A stretch of DNA of 32,997 nt from Patescibacteria group bacterium (GCA_023473585.1 JAMCYU010000011.1:1-32997); one strand, 5' to 3'; positions 24,070 through 29,781 are shown, counted from the stretch's first letter. Numbers and translations are program-made. The notes: generated from the letters alone by a model not told the origin.

Positions 24070-24723
24070 ATGGTAAAGAAAAAGATTTTTTCAAAAACAA
24101 TCATTTACGCTTTTATTGACGCTTCAAATTTGTTTTATGGCGGAGAAAAGAGCTTGGGGTGGTAAATCGATTACCGGAAACTCGCCTTGTATATTAAGGA
24201 AAAGTATCAGGTTGGAAAAATTTATTATTACGGTGGTATCGAAATTAACGACTTTCCTTATTCTGTCCTTGACAAAAAACCAATTAATTTAGATAAGCTT
24301 ATATCTCATCTGGGAATAAGAATGAAGCGGAAAGAGATGTCTGAGGGTTCAATCTTGGTTTTAGAGAAACATATTAAAAGAATCAAATTCTATCGTAAAC
24401 TTAGTCAGTTCGGTTACATCCTTAAACTGAAGCCGGTTAAAATATTCCGTGACGAGGACGGAAACACCACTAAAAAAGCCAATTGTGATGTCGACATGAC
24501 TTTCGACTTAATGAGATTAAAAGACGAATATAGAGGAGTTCTTGTTTTATCTGGAGATGGGGACTTCGCGGTCGTTTTGAAGTATTTAAAAGAAACCGGC
24601 AAAAAAGTTACGATTCTCGCTCGATCGGAAAGAACGGCTAGGGAAATCAAACAAATGGTTGGAGAAGATTTTAGGGACTTCAACAGGTTAAGAACTACCC
24701 TGGAATTCTTCGATAAAAAATAG
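24070..24723 (+). pseudogene. NYN (PIN-like) nuclease gene interrupted by one in-frame TAA
   Basis: Translation from ATG 24070 gives MVKKKIFSKTIIYAFIDASNLFYGG...SLGW, then TAA at 24163-24165, then IDYRKLALYIKEKYQVGKI in the same frame through to 24723 (217 residues if read through). Both halves match the NYN/LabA-like RNase family: the N-terminal FIDASN aspartate, a central CDVDMTFDLM and VLSGDGDFAVVLKYL with further catalytic aspartates, and the KVTILARSE strand. One base (AAA to TAA) explains the break. A restart at TTG 24187 would lack the first catalytic Asp. It may be a recent nonsense mutation, a sequencing error, or a rare read-through. Confidence 0.8.
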
Positions 24724-24747
24724 AGCAGACATACGAAATATCTGCTC
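24723..24747 (+). repeat. Hairpin at the end of the NYN gene
   Basis: GAGCAGA (24723-24729) and TCTGCTC (24741-24747) form a 7-bp stem, extended by two A-T pairs past a mismatch. No T run follows, so it is a weak terminator candidate or mRNA-end stabiliser. Confidence 0.4.
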
Positions 24748-24786
24748 CATGTTTAGTATCTAAATACTACTATAATTTCCTTCTTT

Positions 24787-24801
24787 TGTCAAGGTTTGCT
24801 C
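24787..24801 (+). repeat. 15-bp direct repeat, copy 2 (before lexA)
   Basis: TGTCAAGGTTTGCTC, identical to 24025-24039. It lies just upstream of the lexA promoter; here TTGCTC is not at a useful distance from a -10. Confidence 0.7.
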
Positions 24802-24809
24802 GTTCCTTC

Positions 24810-24838
24810 TTGACAACTGACTAAATAGTCAGTATGAT
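24810..24838 (+). promoter_or_regulatory. lexA/restriction operon promoter with perfect palindromic operator
   Basis: A consensus TTGACA (24810-24815), 17-bp spacer and TATGAT (24833-24838), with the ATG at 24845 6 nt further (leaderless). A perfect 18-bp palindrome, ACTGACTAA-ATAGTCAGT (24816-24833), fills the spacer. Its outer CTG and CAG triplets are 10 nt apart, the same geometry as the E. coli SOS box (CTGT-N8-ACAG). It should bind the LexA-type repressor encoded next. Confidence 0.8.
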
Positions 24839-24844
24839 GTAAAT

Positions 24845-25450
24845 ATGTCTGGGTTATCCATTTTGACTAAACGCCAAAAAGAAGTTTTAAAAGCAATTTA
24901 TAATTCCCTTAAGGACTCAGGTTACCCTCCGACTCTAGCCGATCTCCGCGATAAATTAGATGTTTCTTCAAATCAGGCGGTTTTGGACTTCTTAAAAATT
25001 CTTGAAGAAAAAGGCCTTATCAAAAAAGAAGAAGGCGCAGCTCGAGGATTAAAAATCCTAAAAGAAGGTTTTAACGCTCTTAACGTTCAGCCGATTATTC
25101 CTTATGTCGGAATTAGTGCGGCTGGTCCTTACACTCAAGCTTTTGAAGATATTCGATGGCAATCACATGGTCAAGTTGAGTTAACCAAAGATTTTTTAGT
25201 CAAGGTTAAAGGCGACTCAATGGTTGGAGCTGGTATTAATGATGGAGATATTATTTTGGTTCGTGAATCAAACGAATTTAAAAACGGTGATATTGTTTTA
25301 GCCAGAGATAACGATGGGACGACAATTAAACGATTAATACATAATCGTGGTAAAATTTACCTGAAACCAGAAAATTCAAAATATTCCAATGTTCCTATTT
25401 ATCCAGATACGCGCTTAGTCGGTAAAGTAATAAAGATTATTTCACAATGA
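24845..25450 (+). CDS. lexA: LexA-type self-cleaving repressor
   Basis: A 201-residue S24-family repressor. The N-terminal LexA winged helix spans about 6-70 (LTKRQKEVLKAIYNSLKDSG...PPTLADLRDKL; AARGLKIL). The C-terminal peptidase domain has the Ala93-Gly94 scissile bond in ISAAGPY, nucleophile Ser125 in KGDSMVGAGI and base Lys162 in TTIKRL, so RecA-stimulated self-cleavage should be intact. LexA represses SOS genes until DNA damage. Unusually, its stop overlaps the start of a DNA methyltransferase (ATGA), with a restriction enzyme after that, so the whole cassette is under its palindromic operator. It may be the chromosomal LexA or a cassette-specific controller; the window cannot tell. Confidence 0.92.
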   Translation: MSGLSILTKRQKEVLKAIYNSLKDSGYPPTLADLRDKLDVSSNQAVLDFLKILEEKGLIKKEEGAARGLKILKEGFNALNVQPIIPYVGISAAGPYTQAFEDIRWQSHGQVELTKDFLVKVKGDSMVGAGINDGDIILVRESNEFKNGDIVLARDNDGTTIKRLIHNRGKIYLKPENSKYSNVPIYPDTRLVGKVIKIISQ

Positions 25451-27060
25451 ATAATTTACAAGACATTAATGGCAACAAAATGGATTTTTTAACTTTGAAA
25501 CAAGCAAGTCTTTGGGCGAGTGAATATTTAAAAAAGAATGTCACCGTTTCTAATATTTCGTATCTAATTCAGTATGGAAAAGTTAAAAAAATTGGTGATA
25601 ATGGCAGTACCGTCATTGATAAGAATGAACTTATAAAATATTACGCTTCTCTTTATAAAAAGAGAGAAACCGACTGGAAAGATAAATTGGGAGATGATTT
25701 AAATTGCCATTTATCTTTTAGTAATCTTAGGGAAACGGAGACCACAAAACATGTTCATAGATTGCACCCTTATAAGGGTAAATTTATTCCCCAACTAGTT
25801 GAATATTTTCTTGATGGGCATACTGATGATTTTAAGGAAAATATTTACTTTCATAAAGGCGATATTGTTTTAGATCCTTTTTGCGGTAGCGGGACAACCT
25901 TAGTACAAGCTAATGAAATCGGTCTTCACTCTCTAGGGATTGACGTTTCCGCGTTTAATGCCTTCATCAGTAATAGTAAGGTTGGTAAATATAATCTTAA
26001 TGATTTGAGCCTAACGATAAAAAAAATAACGCAACAGTTAAAAGAATATATTGATAAATTTGAAAACAATATAATCAATTTTGACAAAGAATTGACTAGC
26101 GAACTAAATAAATTTAATAACACCTATTTTTCTGTTCCTGACTATAAATATAAGATAAATCGAAAAGAAATTAACGAACTGGAATATGGAAATAAATACG
26201 CTAATGATTTTTTGAAGATTTATAACCAGCTAGTCAGGAAATATCACATAGTTTTAACTCAGGATAAAAACGAGAACTTTCTTGACAAATGGTATTTAAG
26301 AAATATAAGAGAAGAAGCCGATTTTGTTTTTAATTTTATAAAGCAAGTTAAGAATCTTTCTGAGAAAAGGATCTTGGGTCTTATTTTGAGTCGTACTATT
26401 CGTTCCTGTCGTGCTACAACTCATTCCGATTTAGCAACTCTTAAGTCGCCAATAATCTCTACTTATTATTGTCACAAACACGGAAAAATATGTAAACCAC
26501 TTTTTAGTCTTTTTTCGTGGTGGCAAAGATATTGTTTGGACACCTTAGAAAGATTGGCCATTTTTGATAAGCTACGCACGAATACTTTTCAGTATTGCTT
26601 AACGGGTGATTCGAGAACAATTGATATTGACAAAGAACTCCAGAAAAGAAACCTATCCTTTGCCAATTTAGTAAAAAGGCAAAAAATCAAAGGAATTTTT
26701 TCTTCGCCTCCATATGTCGGTTTAATTGATTATCACGAACAACACGCTTACGCTTATGATTTATTTGGTTTTAAAAGAAATGACAATTTAGAAATAGGAC
26801 CTCTTTTTAGCGGTCAAGGAGAGGATGCAAGAAAATCCTACGTCGAGGGGATTAGTAAAGTGTTAATCAACTGCCAAAAACATTTTGTTCCTAATTATGA
26901 TATATTCTTAGTAGCCAATGATAAATTCAATCTTTATCCGACTATCGCCGAGAAAGCAGGAATGAAAATCGTTGAACAATTTAAACGGCCAGTTTTAAAC
27001 AGAACAGAAAGAGACAAGGGGGCATATTCAGAAATTATTTTTCATCTAAAACAGAAATAA
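25447..27060 (+). CDS. DNA methyltransferase (N4-cytosine/N6-adenine type) of a type II R-M system
   Basis: A 537-residue amino-methyltransferase. An N-terminal helix-turn-helix-like segment (about 13-65; LTLKQASLWASEYL...VIDKNELIKYY) is fused ahead of the enzyme, possibly for DNA binding or autoregulation. LHPYKGKFIPQLVEYF (about 107-121) is the motif X region, DPFCGSGTT (143-151) is the SAM-binding motif I, and SSPPY (419-423) is the catalytic motif IV. The roughly 270-residue gap between I and IV should hold the target-recognition domain, an alpha-class-like order. SPPY allows N4mC or N6mA. It overlaps lexA by ATGA and is followed 4 bp later by the restriction enzyme, which it should protect against. 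Confidence 0.88.
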   Translation: MNNLQDINGNKMDFLTLKQASLWASEYLKKNVTVSNISYLIQYGKVKKIGDNGSTVIDKNELIKYYASLYKKRETDWKDKLGDDLNCHLSFSNLRETETTKHVHRLHPYKGKFIPQLVEYFLDGHTDDFKENIYFHKGDIVLDPFCGSGTTLVQANEIGLHSLGIDVSAFNAFISNSKVGKYNLNDLSLTIKKITQQLKEYIDKFENNIINFDKELTSELNKFNNTYFSVPDYKYKINRKEINELEYGNKYANDFLKIYNQLVRKYHIVLTQDKNENFLDKWYLRNIREEADFVFNFIKQVKNLSEKRILGLILSRTIRSCRATTHSDLATLKSPIISTYYCHKHGKICKPLFSLFSWWQRYCLDTLERLAIFDKLRTNTFQYCLTGDSRTIDIDKELQKRNLSFANLVKRQKIKGIFSSPPYVGLIDYHEQHAYAYDLFGFKRNDNLEIGPLFSGQGEDARKSYVEGISKVLINCQKHFVPNYDIFLVANDKFNLYPTIAEKAGMKIVEQFKRPVLNRTERDKGAYSEIIFHLKQK

Positions 27061-27064
27061 ATAT

Positions 27065-27847
27065 ATGGCTTTATCCGAAGAACAAATTAGCAAGATTGAG
27101 AAGGTTTTAAAAGCAACCTTACGGAATAAGTTTCAAAATTATAAACCCGAACCAGCATCAATGCCTTTTCACACACGCCTACTTGGTAAAGATCGTCTTG
27201 CGCTATATTCTTTTATCCATTCCCTTAACACGAACTTCGGTACTAGTATTTTTGAACCCGTTGGTCTTGCTTTAGCACAAAAGAATTTTGAAAGGGCCTC
27301 TGCTCAAGCTATTGCAGGTGATCATATTAGCAGTGAGGCTCAAAAAGCAATTCAGAAAATTATCGACGGGCTTATTACTGCCGAGACAGTACCAGATAAA
27401 GAAAAAGAAATTGAAATAATCAGAAAGGTTTGCCAGCAAGGAACAATGATTAAAGTAAAACCGACGCGAATCGATTTGATGGTGAAATCAAAAGATGACG
27501 AGTATTTTCTTTTTGATATTAAGACTGCGAAACCCAATGCTGGTGGTTTCAAAGAATTCAAAAGAACACTCCTTGAGTGGGTTGCTATTTTTTTGGCCAA
27601 TAATCCTAAAGCAAATATTAATACGAAGATAGCTATTCCCTACAATCCTTATGAACCACAGAAGTATAATCGTTGGACAATGCGCGGAATGCTCGACCTT
27701 GATAAAGAATTACTTGTTGCAGAGGAATTTTGGGATTTTCTTGGGGGCAGAAATACATATCAAGATTTATTAGATTGTTTCGAAAGAGTGGGGATAGAGC
27801 TTAGAGATGAAATCGATAAAAGTTTCAGTCGTTTTGAAAAAATATAG
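27065..27847 (+). CDS. Type II restriction endonuclease, TdeIII/MjaII-like
   Basis: A 260-residue nuclease. The N-terminal pattern NYKPEPASMPFHTRLLGKDRLALYSFIHSLNTNFGTSIFEP matches, from memory, the TdeIII/MjaII-type restriction enzymes (reported specificity GGNCC for characterised members); I am fairly but not fully sure. A PD-(D/E)xK core is visible: Asp137 in TRIDLMV and Asp151-Ile-Lys153 in YFLFDIKTAKP. The gene starts 4 bp after the methyltransferase stop and shares its operon with lexA. Specificity must be treated as a prediction. The restriction site of this strain should be methylated by the preceding gene. Confidence 0.8.
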   Translation: MALSEEQISKIEKVLKATLRNKFQNYKPEPASMPFHTRLLGKDRLALYSFIHSLNTNFGTSIFEPVGLALAQKNFERASAQAIAGDHISSEAQKAIQKIIDGLITAETVPDKEKEIEIIRKVCQQGTMIKVKPTRIDLMVKSKDDEYFLFDIKTAKPNAGGFKEFKRTLLEWVAIFLANNPKANINTKIAIPYNPYEPQKYNRWTMRGMLDLDKELLVAEEFWDFLGGRNTYQDLLDCFERVGIELRDEIDKSFSRFEKI

Positions 27848-28614: not shown

Positions 28615-29781
28615 ATGATAACTGAGGATGAAATCAACCAAAAAGCAGTGGAGGATGAAATCAACCCTTCTAATATTGAAAAGGATTACGTTTTCGGTTG
28701 GTTGTTAAACGCTTTATATTCACACTCATCTTTAAGCAATCTACTCATTTTAAAAGGTGGCAATGGATTAAGAAAAGCGTATCTTCCTAACACTCGTTTT
28801 TCTAAAGATTTAGATTTTTCTTCTACAGAGCAAATTGACATAACATTTCTTCATGATGAGCTAAATAAAATATGTACAGTCATTAACGAACAAACAGGTA
28901 TTAAATTTGAGTTAGACAGAACGCTTGTTAGGCCAAAGAATATTCCAATCCCAAACAGCGATGTTTTAGAAGCTAGGCTATATTTTAAAGGATTTTACGG
29001 CGAAGAAACGATTTCTTTAAAAACACAACTAGACATAACACAATTCGATAAAATTTTCCTACCGATTCAATCTCGAGATTTAATTCATCCATACTCAGAT
29101 AAGAATCTGTGTACTGTAAACGTTAGATGTCAAAAAGCAGAAGAAATTCTTGCTTCAAAATTAAATAGTTTACTGCAAAGGCAAAAAGTCGCAGATCTCT
29201 TTGATTTACTGTATTCAGTGTTATTTTCAAAAGATTTTCCTGTAAACAAATCGGAGATCATTAGTACGTTTCTAAAGAAATACATTTACGAGTCGACCCC
29301 AAACCAGGCTAAACAACAGCTCTTAGAGGTTCAACTTGAATCATATAGACCCCTTTGGAACACATTGATAGCCCCTTTAGCAAGCCTTTTCCAATTCGAT
29401 GTAGTTATCGTAAACTTTAACCAACTGATTGATAGTCTTTTTGATCTCGTTTTGATTCCACAATCACCACGACCAGATTTTATTCTTTCTTATAATACAC
29501 CCAGTTACTTTTCATCTGATATTAGAAATACTATTATTGAAGCGGGTAGATCACAAAAAATGGTGGAATTGTCATATGAAGGGTACGATAGGCTAGTAGA
29601 ACCATATTCAATGAAATATTATATAAGAAAAGATGGTGTGGGTATGGAATACTTTTGGGGATATGATACGTCTGGTGGCAGATCAGGTGTGCGATCAATA
29701 AAAAGATTTATTTGTGATAAAATCCAATCTGTTCGATTCACTTCTCATAACTTCACACCTCGTTTTGTAGTAGAATTCTAA
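28615..29781 (+). CDS. AbiEii-type nucleotidyltransferase fused to a C-terminal WYL domain
   Basis: A 388-residue two-part protein. The N-terminal part (about 18-230) is an AbiEii/AbiGii-type nucleotidyltransferase: NIEKDYVFGWLL, then KGGNGLRKAY and RFSKDLDFS, where the G-G and the D-x-D pair (about 65 and 67) form the catalytic site, followed by CQKAEEILASKLNSLLQRQKVADLFDLLY. AbiEii toxins in abortive-infection systems modify tRNA or other targets. The C-terminal about 85 residues (302-388; MVELSYEGYDRLVEPYSMKYY...YFWGYDTSG...FTPRFVVEF) match the WYL ligand-sensing domain common in defence regulators. No AbiEi-type antitoxin is adjacent. A ligand-gated toxin that carries its own sensor is the attractive reading; which ligand is unknown. 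Confidence 0.78.
   Translation: MITEDEINQKAVEDEINPSNIEKDYVFGWLLNALYSHSSLSNLLILKGGNGLRKAYLPNTRFSKDLDFSSTEQIDITFLHDELNKICTVINEQTGIKFELDRTLVRPKNIPIPNSDVLEARLYFKGFYGEETISLKTQLDITQFDKIFLPIQSRDLIHPYSDKNLCTVNVRCQKAEEILASKLNSLLQRQKVADLFDLLYSVLFSKDFPVNKSEIISTFLKKYIYESTPNQAKQQLLEVQLESYRPLWNTLIAPLASLFQFDVVIVNFNQLIDSLFDLVLIPQSPRPDFILSYNTPSYFSSDIRNTIIEAGRSQKMVELSYEGYDRLVEPYSMKYYIRKDGVGMEYFWGYDTSGGRSGVRSIKRFICDKIQSVRFTSHNFTPRFVVEF

Follow-up and report, generated by a model that had tools for sequence, protein, structure and literature searches.

Accounts of restriction-modification (R-M) systems usually present them as constitutive or as timed by C proteins, which are small activator/repressors from a family other than LexA and carry no peptidase. 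C.AhdI and its relatives resemble the LexA-type protein described here (LexA2) in being dedicated DNA-binding regulators, encoded at the head of the R-M operon and acting at a palindrome in their own promoter. LexA2 differs from them in that it belongs to the LexA family, is predicted to be a pure repressor, and could be inactivated by self-cleavage. With the SOS repressor LexA (TIGR00498) it shares the A-G cleavage site, the Ser/Lys dyad, and an operator in its own promoter. What sets LexA2 apart is that its operator is found essentially once in each genome, in front of a defence operon and not of repair genes.

In E. coli the SOS box is CTGT-N8-ACAG (PMC8565304). LexA of E. coli also represses SymE, a stress-linked and potentially toxic gene, from a site that overlaps the promoter (PMC1891008, PMC3874152); there the housekeeping LexA acts on a toxin gene, whereas in the present case a private LexA paralogue inside the operon would act on R-M genes. 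That LexA can be duplicated and acquire a new binding motif has been described as a path of its evolution (PMC8565304). The duplicated LexAs in SOS studies of Bacteroidetes and Patescibacteria were proposed to take over SOS genes, in contrast to the paralogues reported below (LexA-C and LexA-A), which are tied to defence operons. Precedents thus exist for C-family controllers of R-M genes, for SymE under SOS control, and for a duplicated LexA whose motif has changed. A search of the open-access literature found no report of a LexA-headed R-M or Cas12a operon, a scope that makes priority uncertain.

Here we analysed one such locus and its relatives. Our main reading, to which we assign a probability of about 65%, is that LexA2 is devoted to repressing the three-gene R-M operon it belongs to, and is relieved through self-cleavage that RecA stimulates.

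Results

Organization of the lexA2 operon

The window, meaning the whole stretch of DNA analysed (32,997 nucleotides), is contig C11 of an 810-kb draft genome of a Patescibacteria group bacterium, with 95% completeness. Positions 24810 to 27847 form a single, tightly packed plus-strand unit of a promoter with an embedded palindrome, lexA2, a methyltransferase (MTase) gene, and a TdeIII-family restriction endonuclease (REase) gene:

24810..24815, plus strand: −35 hexamer TTGACA (from the sequence; TTGAC stands at the matching place in other promoters of the LexA-C clade)
24816..24833, plus strand: operator ACTGACTAAATAGTCAGT, proposed LexA2 binding site in the −35/−10 spacer (from the sequence and its conservation in LexA-C)
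24833..24838, plus strand: −10 hexamer TATGAT (from the sequence and a promoter scan)
24845..25450, plus strand: lexA2, 201 aa, of the LexA-C clade (TIGR00498, Pfam domains, cleavage residues, clade tree)
25447..27060, plus strand: DNA methyltransferase, 537 aa, partner of the TdeIII-family REase (N6_N4_Mtase domain, PADLOC model)
27065..27847, plus strand: type II restriction endonuclease of the TdeIII family (RE_TdeIII match)

The initial annotation had read this stretch as a consensus promoter, its 17-bp spacer taken up by a perfect palindrome, followed by an intact LexA, a methyltransferase, and a restriction enzyme. The sequence bears out the promoter: TTGACA-17-TATGAT, with 11 of 12 matches, is the top promoter-like site of the region, and the palindrome occupies its 17-bp spacer. 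The palindrome reads ACTGACTA-AA-TAGTCAGT; its 8-bp arms pair exactly, and "perfect" is slightly too strong only because the central AA is not self-complementary. The gene order likewise agreed with sequence and domain matches, the MTase start overlapping the lexA2 stop through ATGA and the REase starting 4 bp past the MTase. Since the lexA2 start codon lies 6 nt past the −10 hexamer, a near-leaderless mRNA is expected. A promoter inside lexA2 that drives the R-M genes alone had also been considered; the promoter scan revealed no plus-strand promoter-like site better than chance within the gene. There is no C-protein gene before or between the MTase and REase genes, as promoter, lexA2, and the two enzymes leave no space for one.

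Several features flank the operon. Just upstream, an NYN-domain gene (24070-24723) is interrupted in frame by a stop codon (24163-24165), and intact relatives of it exist elsewhere. We left it out of the operon because of this stop and because some 90 bp separate its end from the promoter. On the minus strand, 24720-24792 holds a promoter-like TTGACA-17-TAGTAT with a terminator-like hairpin directly after it, possibly a very short transcript or a two-way terminator. Downstream lie a small HNH-like ORF from 28304, recognized by eye, and an AbiEii-like gene (28615-29781), which together with the R-M operon make up a small defence island.

The TdeIII-family R-M genes

The REase matched RE_TdeIII (PF09520) at 7e-94, and a PD-(D/E)XK-like core, D137...D151-x-K153, was apparent by eye. 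The MTase matched over its length a type II MTase model of PADLOC (1e-237); it has the motifs DPFCGSGT and SPPY and, by eye, an HTH-like N-terminus. The locus resembles other TdeIII-type R-M systems in its REase family and in the usual neighbouring methyltransferase, a PF09520 enzyme with an adjacent MTase being a pair that recurs in many genomes. It differs from most TdeIII-type relatives found in that lexA heads the operon, where they have no regulator gene.

TdeIII-family enzymes were present in 22 of 380 phylum genomes, and most of these loci consist of the MTase and REase genes only. LexA control is accordingly not needed for TdeIII R-M to work; that such systems always require LexA was rejected on the same grounds, the closest REase relative (L060) being among those without lexA. 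A scan of GTDB genomes revealed 12 TdeIII loci with a LexA-type gene directly before the MTase gene, and among the best 80 matches no other named phylum had a lexA-headed TdeIII locus.

We take the specificity of TdeIII to be GGNCC. This sequence occurs 55 times in the window (1-32997) against 89.5 ± 9.8 expected, while the control CCNGG occurs 100 times against 92.7. Depletion of GGNCC without depletion of CCNGG is the pattern expected if a GGNCC restriction system were active, and is suggestive only.

LexA2 and the second LexA of the genome

LexA2 scored 143.2 bits to TIGR00498, above the curated LexA equivalog cut-off of 110.95, and is a full-length protein with winged-helix (LexA_DNA_bind) and Peptidase_S24 domains. 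The cleavage site A93-G94 and the catalytic pair S125/K162 are all present, in agreement with the initial annotation of an intact and presumably self-cleavable LexA. These residues are intact in all members of LexA-C (28/28) and of two further clades, LexA-A (11/11) and LexA-B (5/5). The cleavage-site Gly, the Ser, and the Lys were also retained in every other LexA compared, so their presence in LexA2 does not show that cleavage matters here. An intact recA gene is present in the genome. Searches of IMG/VR, phages, and plasmids yielded no full-length relative of more than 39% identity, and a phage or plasmid origin of LexA-C was rejected.

The genome does contain a second lexA, a point raised at the outset, which adjoins uvrB on contig C4 (L001). 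Its promoter has TTCGGGTTTTTTATGGT and lacks the LexA2 palindrome, and several housekeeping LexA promoters of the class carry, by eye, similar TTCGGGTT...TTTGGTA repeats. We therefore rejected the palindrome as the SOS box of this genome. The initial annotation had held that its CTG-N10-CAG geometry matches the SOS box; this stands for the spacing, which is that of E. coli, and fails for the sequence, which is CTGA-N8-TCAG in the window operator and CTGT-N8-ACAG in the E. coli-type box. Of that interpretation, LexA control through the palindrome is supported by comparison, and the identity of the palindrome with the genome's SOS box is not.

The exact 18-mer operator is unique in the 810-kb genome; one other match at ≤3 mismatches lies within coding sequence, and a degenerate 16-mer version gave one further match, in an rfbB-like gene. 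The candidate second sites C1:46502 and C1:117737 were rejected, each being within coding sequence. By its sequence LexA2 is thus a LexA family member and not the SOS master, because its operator occurs once in the genome outside coding sequence.

LexA2 might cleave itself in response to another signal, such as a phage protein or another co-protease, and not to RecA filaments. That the cell already owns another LexA for classical damage control would fit this idea, but LexA2 is an ordinary full-length LexA above the equivalog cut-off and the genome has an intact RecA, and we regard it as improbable next to relief through RecA.

A LexA clade linked to defence operons

A phylum-wide protein search with the window LexA returned eight complete relatives of 46-69% identity, and two further genes were recovered through a separate search. 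A profile of these 11 genes, the window's own included, was then run on 374 class genomes without reference to R-M genes. It found 20 loci at 268-316 bits, with all other LexAs at ≤156 bits, and the 17 new genes from this class sample provided an independent test of linkage. LexA-C as a whole comprises 28 distinct genes in 27 Patescibacteria genomes, window included, and is monophyletic with a branch support of 100/100 in a tree of 125 LexAs. No same-genus or same-family relative of the window's genome was found, and hence no clean empty site.

Directly downstream of LexA-C were R-M genes of at least five types in 27 of the 28 cases, one of them beside a remnant, and a Cas12a-Cas4-Cas1-Cas2 operon in the remaining one. 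In the phylum sample, each of the eight complete loci leads an R-M operon: one has an N6/N4 MTase with a MutH-like enzyme, and in the other seven HSDR_N and N6_Mtase are fused in one protein while the specificity (S) subunit stands apart, a BcgI-like layout (assigned by Pfam on representatives and by sequence similarity for the rest). Both genes from the separate search precede R-M operons as well. In the independent class sample (n=17), 16 stand before R-M genes (one beside a remnant) and one before the Cas12a operon; the R-M types are mostly BcgI-like, with MvaI/BcnI-type, BsuBI/PstI-type, and M.TdeIII-type in addition. The M.TdeIII-type case (L291) has the MTase without its REase. The Cas12a locus (L284:513-8258) starts with LexA-C and its operator, followed by NYN, Cas12a, Cas4, Cas1, Cas2, and a CRISPR array of nine repeats.

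Some members of the clade are composed differently. A tandem pair of LexA-C genes with slightly different operators occurs in L286 (G610:C2:171000-183500), where the first gene precedes a BcgI-like R-M remnant. Between their R-M and S genes, the BcgI-like operons in L202-L208, L287, L288, and L293 accommodate additional genes of various kinds, which encode DUF6119, DUF3800, NYN, PemK-like, and OLD/AriA-like or SMC-like ATPase proteins. NYN genes lie within the LexA-C operons of both L206 and L284.

The linkage bears on whether LexA2 could regulate only itself, with the R-M genes downstream by accident. Many TdeIII-family R-M loci do without lexA, as such an accident would allow. Against it, all 28 LexA-C genes lie ahead of defence genes or a remnant; under a strict automatic test for MTase motifs, 23 of 27 LexA-C genes were positive, compared with 2 of 52 other LexAs (p = 9e-14). 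The spacing between genes is mostly ≤15 bp, and two other LexA clades behave likewise. A lexA standing alone behind the same operator in relatives had been named initially as a pattern that would refute the reading, and we found no LexA-C gene that has the operator and lacks defence genes. A chance neighbourhood therefore seems close to negligible, in favour of LexA2 as the repressor of its own operon.

Conservation of the operator

All 28 LexA-C promoters, the window's included, have TTGAC, then a palindrome, then a −10-like hexamer, so that the search of relatives for the lexA-MTase-REase layout, proposed at first, led to a common architecture of promoter, palindrome, and defence genes. LexA2 has each trait of the group: membership of the clade, a promoter-embedded palindrome, and defence genes directly downstream. 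The operator consensus, CYGACYA-NN-TRGTCRG or a relaxed form of it, was present in 28/28, and the core GA..GTC is invariant; one subclade has a degenerate left arm (CAGAATA).

The arms showed compensatory change at pair 2/15, which is T-A in 12 cases and C-G in 6. This pair matched in 18 of 28 operators against 9.8 with shuffled arms, a value reached in 1 of 10,000 shuffles. Over all positions the same test was weakly significant (176 paired cells against 169, a value reached in 436 of 10,000 shuffles), since most operator positions are invariant and the signal sits in pair 2/15.

The strict consensus matched in 16 of 18 LexA-C genomes, with a single site in 14. The two-site genomes are G610, which has two LexA-C genes, and the window's genome, where one site is in coding sequence. 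Occurrence of the operator essentially once per genome points to each LexA-C as a private repressor with a single target, its own operon.

Other LexA lineages before R-M genes

Two more clades, LexA-A and LexA-B, independently precede R-M operons. The LexAs of the 12 lexA-headed TdeIII loci belong to them, ten to LexA-A and two to LexA-B. LexA-A (support 100/100) has 11 genes, including one in L234, all before MTases. Their promoters contain a near-invariant TTGTTTAGGTTATSTTTAGGTAKTATAMT, the repeat again lying in the −35/−10 spacer, and this site occurs once per genome in 7 of 8 genomes, the eighth having one extra 2-mismatch match. The LexA-A of G324 stands before a C5 methyltransferase. In L083 (1084-4316) an unrelated N6/N4 MTase comes after LexA-A, with a TdeIII-type REase behind it that shares 72% identity with the window's enzyme; this reads as an exchange of partners behind the same promoter. 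LexA-B (support 100/99) precedes a DUF6996/6997 protein plus an MTase in G392, and a PIF1-like helicase in two other genomes. The convergence of three LexA lineages on defence operons argues for selection over accident.

Five genomes yielded no LexA other than the R-M-linked LexA-A: G161 and G274, each with a completeness rating of 100%, and G389, G391, and G395. A classical SOS repressor may be missing from these bacteria. LexAs outside the three clades also precede MTase-like R-M genes in L160 and L159, possibly further independent captures. In L141, L142, L143, L146, L161, L162, and L047 a LexA domain is N-terminal in ORFs of about 485-630 aa and fused to a further domain.

Discussion

As far as comparative genomics can speak to it, there is strong support for control of the R-M operon by LexA2 via the palindrome: the operator is found clade-wide, LexA-C stands before defence genes or a remnant in 28/28 cases, and there is a single site per genome. 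We strongly infer that LexA2 would repress the operon: the position of its proposed site, across the spacer of a strong promoter, agrees with steric repression, in which a LexA2 dimer bound to the palindrome between −35 and −10 would block RNA polymerase and keep lexA2, MTase, and REase at a low, self-limited level. Single-stranded DNA arising from damage, stalled forks, phage replication, or incoming DNA would lead to RecA filaments, and these would stimulate self-cleavage of LexA2 at A93-G94. Cleavage would derepress the operon and raise MTase and REase together until RecA activity ended and repression was restored. Because the cleavage residues and RecA are intact, it is reasonable to expect that DNA damage would raise both enzymes. 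E. coli lowers type I restriction during DNA damage (restriction alleviation), and more REase at such a time could harm the cell, which speaks against induction by damage.

An unlikely alternative, though one that deserves attention, is that LexA2 works as an establishment timer in the manner of a C protein: on entry into a repressor-free cell the operon would be strongly expressed and then settle to a safe low level, cleavage being incidental. The position of lexA2 as first gene with an operator in its own promoter suits this, as do the frequency of dedicated controllers in R-M systems (PMC3874152) and the presence of LexA-A and LexA-C in unrelated Patescibacteria families, which is consistent with transfer. 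However, with MTase, REase, and lexA2 on one promoter the REase would not be delayed behind the MTase as in C-protein systems, and incidental cleavage would allow losses, whereas none of 28 LexA-C proteins has lost the residues. The Cas12a operon, which needs no M-before-R timing, argues against a pure timing role for LexA-C. Induction could instead serve self-restriction, as an altruistic or addiction device in which induced REase kills the cell, for example one that is lytically infected. The REase would indeed be co-induced if RecA relieves LexA2, and R-M systems can behave as toxin-antitoxin units (PMC3874152). Yet the MTase gene stands ahead of the REase gene and both enzymes would increase together, and the Cas12a and S-subunit systems under LexA-C are sequence-specific defences and not obvious suicide devices, so that we consider self-restriction quite improbable.

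We favour RecA-relieved repression, under which defences headed by LexA-C would probably stay at a low level until DNA damage or invasion turns them on. Its recurrence before other R-M systems and one Cas12a operon suggests that LexA-C is a module for induction that can be exchanged among defence operons and works apart from the other LexA of the cell. It seems more likely than not that, through this clade and the two further lineages, several R-M types and Cas12a have become RecA-inducible, making innate and adaptive immunity responsive to damage or infection while insulated from SOS. A LexA-C gene with CYGACYA-NN-TRGTCRG in its promoter offers a sequence handle for new defence operons in Patescibacteria. 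A damage-response repressor would have been captured repeatedly, together with its own operator, as the private switch of R-M and CRISPR operons. LexA-C control predicts inducible defences, and the induction of immunity by DNA damage or infection becomes a testable question.
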